A stretch of 64,000 bases of DNA. Origin: Nocardioides albus. Its GTDB lineage: Bacteria; Actinomycetota; Actinomycetes; Propionibacteriales; Nocardioidaceae. A program made the translations under genes and the position numbers. The notes below the pieces were generated by a model. That model did no database searches, had not been told where the DNA came from, and saw nothing but the letters and a program-made list of their open reading frames with translations. The DNA is taken from assembly GCF_014648255.1 (NCBI RefSeq), contig NZ_BMQT01000006.1:248001-312000 (forward strand). Direction: 5' to 3'. Positions 6,325-8,935 of the stretch are shown here, in pieces (position 1 is the stretch's first letter; every line of letters starts with the position of its first letter).

Positions 6325-6620
6325 GACGTGGAGTCAAGCACAGGGGTGTCGGTGATCGGGGCCTGTCACATGCTGATCATGCTTGTCTGCGGCTGCGGCG
6401 GGGTTGACGACACCTTGTGACTCGGTCACATGGGTCGGCCGATGCTGCGGACACCTGGGAGGGCAGGGACTCTCTCACCTCCGGGACATGCTGAAGGACC
6501 CGTGGGGATGAGGAGCGGTCTGTACGAGTTGGTGATCGCCGGAAGGCCTGGGACCTCGGGGCACGTGCAGGTGCCCGCGGCAGGCGGGATGGCCGTGCGG
6601 GGTGAGCTCACGCTGCGGGT
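6325..6620. other. intergenic region without a convincing gene
   Basis: These 296 bases hold the upstream region of the phosphotransferase gene and the 3' flank of the HNH gene. A plus-strand frame from 6430 is open but runs antisense into the HNH gene and has no homology-like features. Apart from the palindrome at 6416-6430, nothing functional is seen. Confidence 0.5.
6416..6430. promoter_or_regulatory. TGTGACTCGGTCACA palindrome
   Basis: TGTGA and TCACA are separated by five bases, resembling a CRP/FNR-family half-site arrangement with one base less than the usual spacer. It is 92 bp upstream of the phosphotransferase start. A related TGTCACATG occurs at 6364-6372. A CRP-type regulator is one candidate. 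Confidence 0.35.
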
Positions 6621-7895: not shown

Positions 7896-8142
7896 CGCCG
7901 CCCTCCCTTCCGAGCTGTTCGAAGGCGTGTCGTGATGGGTCTGATTCTACCCTTCATAAACCCGCGAATCCATCTATTTCCCCAGGTCAAACACGTTTTT
8001 CGCGGTTAGCGAACGAGCATCGGATCTGTGGACGTTAAGTGGCCCGAAGGGCCACCCTCCCACCTCCACGACAGCACCTTCCGAAGCATGATTCCGCTGC
8101 GCCACACCCGGGCCGCCGCCCCGATAGCCAGCCAAATATTTT

Positions 8143-8228
8143 CTCGACGGGCCCCGGTGTCAAGGACCGCGGTAGCGGCCGGCGTAGCCGGCGGCCGAAG
8201 GCCGTCCTTTACTCCGGGGTCCGTCGAG
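8143..8228. repeat. 86-bp inverted-repeat element, copy A
   Basis: The 25-base arms at 8143-8167 and 8204-8228 match at 22 positions. Both ends read CTCGACGG in opposite orientation. A second hairpin (GCCGGC, then GGCCGAAGGCC) fills the centre. The structure is cruciform-capable and repeats at 8538-8623. Confidence 0.85.
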
Positions 8229-8289
8229 AAGACCGTAGAACTCGGGTCGGCGGCCCTGCCGGCCGAAGAAGAACCCTCCCGGCAGGGAT

Positions 8290-8311
8290 GGTCTCGACAA
8301 GCTCGACCACC
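8290..8311. repeat. REP-like 22-bp repeat (copy in repeat block A)
   Basis: Identical to the repeats inside the DASS gene (3651) and valS (55343) except for one G to A change. A shorter relative, GGGTCGACAAGCTCGACCAC, occupies 8685-8704 in block B. Confidence 0.8.
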
Positions 8312-8378
8312 GGTGGCCAGACGATCCGGCAGAGAACCGTGTTGGTCTCGACACGCCTCCGCCTAGCGGCTCCGGCGG

Positions 8379-8842
8379 CTCGACCAGCGGGGCAAAAGAG
8401 GGTCTCAACCAGCATCAGACCTGTGGACGCTAAGTGGCCCGAAGGGCCACCCTCCCGTCCCCACGACAGCACCTTCCGAAGCATCATTCCGCTGCACCAC
8501 ACCCGGGCCGCCGCCCCGATAGCCAGCCAAATATTTTCTCGACGGACCCCGGAGTCAAGGACCGCGAAAGCGGCCGGCGAAGCCGGCGGCCGCAGGCCGT
8601 CCTTTACTCCGGGGCCCGTCGAGAAGACCGTAGAACTCGGGTCGGCGGCCCCGCCGGCCTCAGAAGAACCCTTCCGGCAGGGAGGGGTCGACAAGCTCGA
8701 CCACGAAAGTGACCGTGTTGGTCTCGACACGCCTCCGCCTAGCGGCTCCGGCGGCTCGACCAGCGGGGCAAAAGAGGGTCTCAACCAGCGGGCAAGGAGA
8801 TCTCGACCAGCGGGGCAAAAGGGGGTCTCGACCAGCGGGGCA
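8379..8842. repeat. four copies of a 16-bp direct repeat
   Basis: CTCGACCAGCGGGGCA occurs at 8379-8394, 8755-8770, 8802-8817 and 8827-8842. The last two are almost adjacent and form the ragged end of the tandem block, suggesting slippage or unequal exchange there. Confidence 0.85.
8538..8623. repeat. 86-bp inverted-repeat element, copy B
   Basis: Arms at 8538-8562 and 8599-8623, 395 bp after copy A. Base differences between the copies at the ends swap which arm carries GGACCCC or GGGCCCC, keeping one near-match per hairpin. Confidence 0.85.
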
Positions 8843-8935
8843 AGGAGGCCGCGACAAGCCCGACCACCGAAACCCCAAGATCACTAGATCCGAGCCCGGC
8901 GCCGAGCAGCCGTTCGGCTACCTCAAAGCTCCGCC

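Follow-up and report, generated by a model that had tools for sequence, protein, structure and literature searches.

The block of repeated DNA that lies beside a 13E12-type nuclease gene in Nocardioides albus (contig NZ_BMQT01000006.1, positions 248,001 to 312,000; this whole stretch of 64,000 nucleotides is called the window below) is probably the promoter-side terminal region of an element resembling an insertion sequence (IS), whose sole gene encodes a DUF222-HNH nuclease that would act on the terminal hairpin. The window copy has this promoter-side end twice in tandem and shows no recognisable opposite end. Actinobacterial genomes often contain DUF222-HNH genes in several copies. Taken together, the conserved hairpin end, the complete elements, the empty sites and the REP partner lead to a concrete hypothesis that offers an idea of the role of this little-studied family: the hairpin module would be the substrate and the HNH protein the enzyme, acting on a strand that the hypothesis names and that can be tested.

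The two units of the block are spaced by 395 bp (Table 1). Positions 8012-8291 and 8407-8686 are 93% identical over 280 ungapped nucleotides, and the gapped alignment of both units gives 89% over 402 columns, which bears out the tandem 395-bp element of the first-pass annotation, whose REP-like pieces and ragged repeated end are likewise present. Each unit holds, as had been claimed, one large inverted repeat, with arms of 30 nt that match at 87% in the first (8141-8170/8201-8230) and at 90% in the second (8536-8565/8596-8625), but the proposed size of 86 bp was too small: the inner stem is enclosed by an outer helix of 14 pairs (GGGCCGCCGCCCCGA / TCGGGTCGGCGGCCC), and the whole palindrome, composed of outer helix, asymmetric internal loop and long inner stem, occupies 147 nt per unit. 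When folded as single-stranded DNA, the palindromes reach -54.6 and -57.9 kcal/mol (z -7.6 and -8.3), and 0 of 200 dinucleotide shuffles folded as well for each unit; these shuffles and the stem covariation described below rule out a chance palindrome. Plasmid and phage searches with positions 8012-8842 gave no match.

Table 1. Features of the repeat block and its neighbouring gene (positions in the window)
Feature	Position	Strand	Basis or remark
Possible far-part remnant (tentative)	6406..6433	.	One short local 28-nt match, to an internal site of copy L031
DUF222-HNH (13E12-type) nuclease gene, 424 aa	6621..7895	-	Paralogues, HNH residues
Putative leader/promoter region between gene and module	7896..8101	-	Sequence
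Unit 1 (395 bp)	8012..8406	+	Self-comparison, genome matches
Terminal hairpin module 1	8102..8254	+	Outer helix 8110-8124/8242-8256, inner stem about 8141-8230
Short REP (GGTCTCGACAAGCTCGACCACCG)	8290..8312	+	
Long REP copy 1	8336..8392	+	GTGTT end toward module
Unit 2, diverged tandem duplicate	8407..8782	+	
Terminal hairpin module 2	8497..8649	+	
Long REP copy 2	8712..8768	+	
Ragged tandem array of REP-tail repeats	8755..8847	+	

The membership of the window gene in the DUF222 (13E12) family is established through its paralogues. The 13 closest of them in the genome (A-type) are 60-94% identical to it, and ten of these are among the Pfam DUF222 (PF02720) matches over the cut-off of 24.4 bits, so that the 13E12 assignment made at first pass holds; the 94% identical paralogue on contig C1 scores 51.9 bits. 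The window protein itself gave no match to Pfam DUF222, and its HNH match (PF01844; E 0.0047, 17.5 bits) is below the curated cut-off of 21.4 bits, which three paralogues exceed. Its HNH/zinc-type residues (C361, C366, H377, G384, G385 and C396) are intact, and the same six are invariant across 24 proteins. No RuvC-type domain was listed by Pfam in four DUF222-HNH proteins. The structure model of the protein is poor (mean pLDDT 59.6), and a fold search with it returned no match at E 0.001, the best having E 0.15. Among plasmids, five records matched the window protein, all partially (21-31% covered) and at less than 60% identity.

Searched against its own genome, the 395-bp unit gave 58 matches at E 0.001. 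Of 58 full modules, 56 were kept for alignment A1 (one of the two excluded carries a 24-nt insert) and used to build a covariance model of the module (R1), the matches of which were set against those of tblastn and Pfam DUF222. Of 29 full modules found in this genome, 27 adjoin a DUF222-HNH gene and two are solo. The genome-wide hairpin search proposed at first pass therefore returned the suspected link to DUF222-HNH genes, and within the Nocardioides clade the block is neither single-copy nor unlinked to them. Because 27 of the 29 modules are gene-linked, the companion idea of a separate non-autonomous element merely lying beside the gene is rejected in favour of a promoter-side end, here tandemly duplicated, of a unit that carries the gene. 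Full promoter-side modules number 22, at 21 genes (the window gene has two), and one further gene, on contig C5, has a truncated one. The five downstream modules lie in inverted orientation past a DUF222-HNH gene; the covariance-model search of the genome found no terminal module on the far side of the window gene. The genes with promoter-side modules fall into two subfamilies with about 21% protein identity between them. The four DUF222 repeats of group C are without such a module; the likeness among their copies begins about 465 bp before the start codon and ends just beyond the stop. Direct repeats were seen at 3852-4157 of L034, beyond a truncated promoter-side module.

Non-autonomous derivatives may nevertheless occur elsewhere in the genome, in the form of the two solo modules and possibly of dispersed REPs. 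The solo copies, of ~435 bp each (L039 2840-3278 and L040 2539-2972, contig C3), are 87% identical over 441 aligned columns and, judged by their sequence, may be short non-autonomous elements. Both also hold several GAATGAACGTTCATTC-like palindromes resembling regulator operators.

In the named relatives (Nocardioides sp. YR527, N. turkmenicus, N. luteus and MAG-46; 28 loci), a full upstream module is present at 22 of the 24 loci with upstream DNA, one of the other two having a partial module (L112) and one none (L092); the remaining four loci start at or near a contig end. The complete architecture is found in the single-contig genome G001, in which nine of 15 loci (L169-L177) consist of two outward-facing inverted modules around one DUF222-HNH gene, with the modules about 1.68-1.83 kb apart and an overall length of ~1.9 kb. 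The other six loci hold one full module or partial ones only; the stretches of L180 and L181 end inside the gene, and no partner module is listed for either. A full downstream module also occurs at six of the 28 loci of the named relatives, as it does at five genes of the window's genome. Complete copies thus have the IS-like order of module, gene and inverted module, and the terminal inverted repeats by which insertion sequences are recognised exist in G001, the window copy having only one end. Two observations count against the IS-like reading at this point: a number of copies lack a second module and cease to be alike directly after the stop codon, and the group C repeats do the same.

Insides of some copies carry further features. 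Palindromes of the form TTGTGAA..TTCACAA, which are possible candidates for internal binding sites, lie past the stop codon and before the downstream module, or what remains of it, in L031, L032, L034 and L078. In genome G050, an IS110-family element (assigned by Pfam DEDD_Tnp_IS110 and Transposase_20, scanned on L131) cuts the HNH motif of three DUF222 genes (L131, L136, L137) at the identical position, after ..CDAH, and the gene match of L187 and L188 stops at the same residue. An rve-type integrase/transposase gene stands between the promoter-side module and the DUF222 gene of L129, also in G050.

Movement was assessed by joining the flanks of six G001 elements and searching them in eight genomes, counting the genomes where the two flanks were found near each other or on either side of an element. 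On this basis, the L175 site is empty in five of five genomes (G000, G011, G015, G050, G063), the L177 site in three of five (G011, G015, G063; filled in G000 and G050) and the L176 site in two of five (G011, G015; filled in G000, G050 and G063). The L174 site is filled wherever its two flanks occur together (G000, G015, G050, G063), and the L171 and L170 sites are filled or show gaps of other sizes, with no clean empty site. A further site, L045, is empty in G001 and filled in the window's genome and in YR527, where the element stands just after a stop codon. The comparison of empty sites in relatives, also suggested at first pass, accordingly gave empty orthologous sites at four loci (L175, L177, L176 and L045), and this alternation of occupied and empty sites is best read as movement. 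Such movement is rare, because copies stay long at orthologous sites, a point against the IS-like reading. No target-site duplication was recognised by eye, with element ends placed to within about 30 bp, and this too counts against an IS-like element; TGA flanks both sides of one site, which could be chance. Two seemingly empty sites were rejected, as G011 holds an apparent collapsed relic of both ends at the L031 site, and the 46 bp between the flanks of the L037 locus in G015 include an element-end-like motif. At the L044 site of G001 (L122), about 3.2 kb separate the flanks, and DUF222 gene and module were not detected.

Elements are often at the same site in several species, and some sites hold different subfamilies across species. 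HNH nucleases include homing enzymes, and such repeated occupation would fit a free-standing homing endonuclease gene whose product cuts the empty allele and so lets the gene home into fixed intergenic sites, the modules being carried-along flank. That explanation is very unlikely, given that each genome has many different sites, among which no shared target sequence was noticed in a non-systematic look, and that inverted modules with covariation are left unexplained by it.

The same occupation has to be weighed together with the relatedness of the copies. Same-site genes are 66-86% identical across species (29 pairs), and within one genome the closest paralogue reaches 86-96% identity, L036 being the exception at 83%. 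In a tree of 54 genes, from which short or broken ones (L112, L114, L116-L119) and several G001 loci were excluded, the 35 genes at 11 shared loci require six changes of genome label (least possible five) and 29 of locus label, with some shared-locus labels resting on one flank. By their sequences, then, shared-site copies group by genome and not by site, a pattern that could be explained by gene conversion or by repeated insertion at the same sites. This pattern and the presence of copies at orthologous sites across species are what would be expected if recombination alone were at work, that is, if these were old dispersed repeats spread by ordinary duplication and host gene conversion, the hairpin being a regulatory or terminator structure and neither it nor the nuclease having a role in movement. 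A precedent lies in the REP13E12 regions of Mycobacterium tuberculosis, described in a preprint as hotspots of gene conversion among copies (PMC13061034). Recombination alone is nevertheless unlikely in view of the empty sites at four loci and of the outward-facing inverted modules kept at nearly constant spacing around one gene. It is also at odds with the L031 site, where the genes of the window's genome and YR527 are only 67% alike between flanks that are mostly 87-91% alike (one 222-bp piece, 78%). Flanks of L094 and L115 in MAG-46 are exchanged relative to the window's genome (compared with the window and L042), which may reflect recombination between copies or a join in the MAG assembly.

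The stem of the module is conserved by compensatory changes, as read from aligned copies. Scored over 55 distinct modules, covariation reaches 0.194, compared with 0.068 (sd 0.006) for shuffles, with 0 of 500 as high, and 0.020-0.047 for slid controls. Parsimony, mapping the modules of these related copies on the gene tree (46 genes), counted 34 double changes between Watson-Crick pairs, and changes from Watson-Crick pairs led to G-U in 20 cases, to A-C in two and to other mismatches in 20, the last being no fewer than those to G-U, which counts against the IS-like reading. Among single-step changes, G-U outnumbers A-C by 14 to 2 (two-sided binomial p 0.004). The same holds for alignment cells, with G-U versus A-C at 52 versus 7 in promoter-side A-type modules, 27 versus 1 in downstream ones and 14 versus 0 in B-type ones, the G-U excess lying on the strand that reads outward at both element ends. 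This suggests that the selected form is a single outward-reading strand, DNA or RNA, since a duplex cruciform would treat G-U and A-C alike; a strand bias of mutation is possible, and the copies are related.

On the promoter side, the strand that tolerates G-U runs antisense to the gene, and the Rfam search gave no match over the gathering score (one match at E 0.11 had 23.8 bits versus 142), for which reasons a riboswitch in the gene's own leader was rejected. Scaffold RNAs work with IscB or TnpB, and the tolerance of G-U on one strand, as well as the partial conservation of unpaired sequences beside the stem, would also agree with a module transcribed outward into a structured RNA partner of the HNH protein. 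Such an RNA is very unlikely: the scanned proteins contain only DUF222 and HNH, bar one weak match below cut-off, the antisense orientation and the Rfam result speak against it as well, and single-stranded DNA would give the same bias.

The long REP has 64 occurrences in the window's genome (up to two mismatches; 0 for the reversed control). It lies 40-101 nt outside 21 of the 22 promoter-side modules, in a single orientation, and at none of the five downstream or two solo modules, about 0.04 being expected in 150-bp windows. Six pairs of matches, 6-20 bp apart, form inverted doublets. In YR527 a different REP core is in the same place at five of ten loci with a full upstream module, and the long REP is absent from the 110 nt beyond each end of the nine complete G001 elements; because the core differs in the one and the long REP is missing from the other, the REP is not essential to the element.

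The sequences show the architecture of the element, its presence and absence at orthologous sites and the conservation of its stem. The IS-like reading preferred here admits a sequence of steps in which the outward-reading strand would be exposed as single-stranded DNA and fold into the hairpin, which the HNH protein would recognise, nicking nearby; we infer that repair could then copy the element into a target, giving a new insertion, or from a sister copy, giving gene conversion. The solo modules would travel as passengers mobilised in trans, as perhaps would the REPs. A broader proposal, in which a new class of elements would have DUF222-HNH proteins as its mobility nucleases, recognising the single-stranded hairpin of the outward strand at each end and also dispersing REPs in a genome without a RAYT, is possible though rather doubtful. 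Should it hold, the mechanisms of mobility known for bacterial REPs would gain another, with an HNH enzyme in the role that a tyrosine transposase has elsewhere among bacteria.

Several known systems share parts of this organisation. As far as the available portions of the sources describe them, REPtrons with RAYT (TnpA-REP) and REPINs likewise combine a single nuclease gene with neighbouring palindromes and REPs, with dispersed REPs, some in inverted doublets, and with a single-strand hairpin logic (PMC3733652, PMC8266576, PMC3116915). REPs of fixed orientation by the gene and dispersed copies, which characterise REPtrons, are both found in the window's genome. Unlike them, the Nocardioides element has an HNH protein and not a Y1/HUH transposase, and a large terminal module of ~150 nt; Y1_Tnp (PF01797) had 0 matches in the window's genome (98.4% complete, 28 contigs). 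TIRtrons are similar in having a single gene and long terminal inverted repeats that are also dispersed, but their gene (TIRYT) is a tyrosine transposase and not an HNH one (PMC3733652). Elements of the IS200/IS605 group with IscB or TnpB have hairpins near their ends, and the IscB branch has an HNH nuclease. The Nocardioides modules differ from these in being inverted at two ends, around a DUF222 gene with no RuvC or Y1 transposase found.

REP13E12 of M. tuberculosis consists of repeated DUF222/HNH genes (PMC10589994), is an integration site for other mobile DNA, phiRv1 (PMC9317374), and is said in the preprint to be without defined biological function (PMC13061034). Compared by description only, and from partial texts, it shares with the Nocardioides element the repeated DUF222/HNH genes, probably gene conversion, and the role of target for other mobile DNA, the IS110-family insertions of G050 being comparable to phiRv1; terminal hairpin modules go unmentioned in those portions. 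In the parts seen of the open-licence literature on DUF222-HNH, 13E12, REP13E12 and RAYT/REP there was no description of hairpin ends or of such an element, and no RAYT with REP in actinobacteria was found in the open-licence literature.

Across the order, a search of 117 genomes, with 26 candidates per genome scored, found the module in at least four, namely the window's genome and three that belong to a different family in the order (G170, G108 and G019). Each of these three has one module-like palindrome (L141, L142 and L143, respectively), with no DUF222 match within 17 kb, which is a further point against the IS-like reading. The three palindromes carry similar CCGATGACCAGCC and GTCAAGGG motifs.
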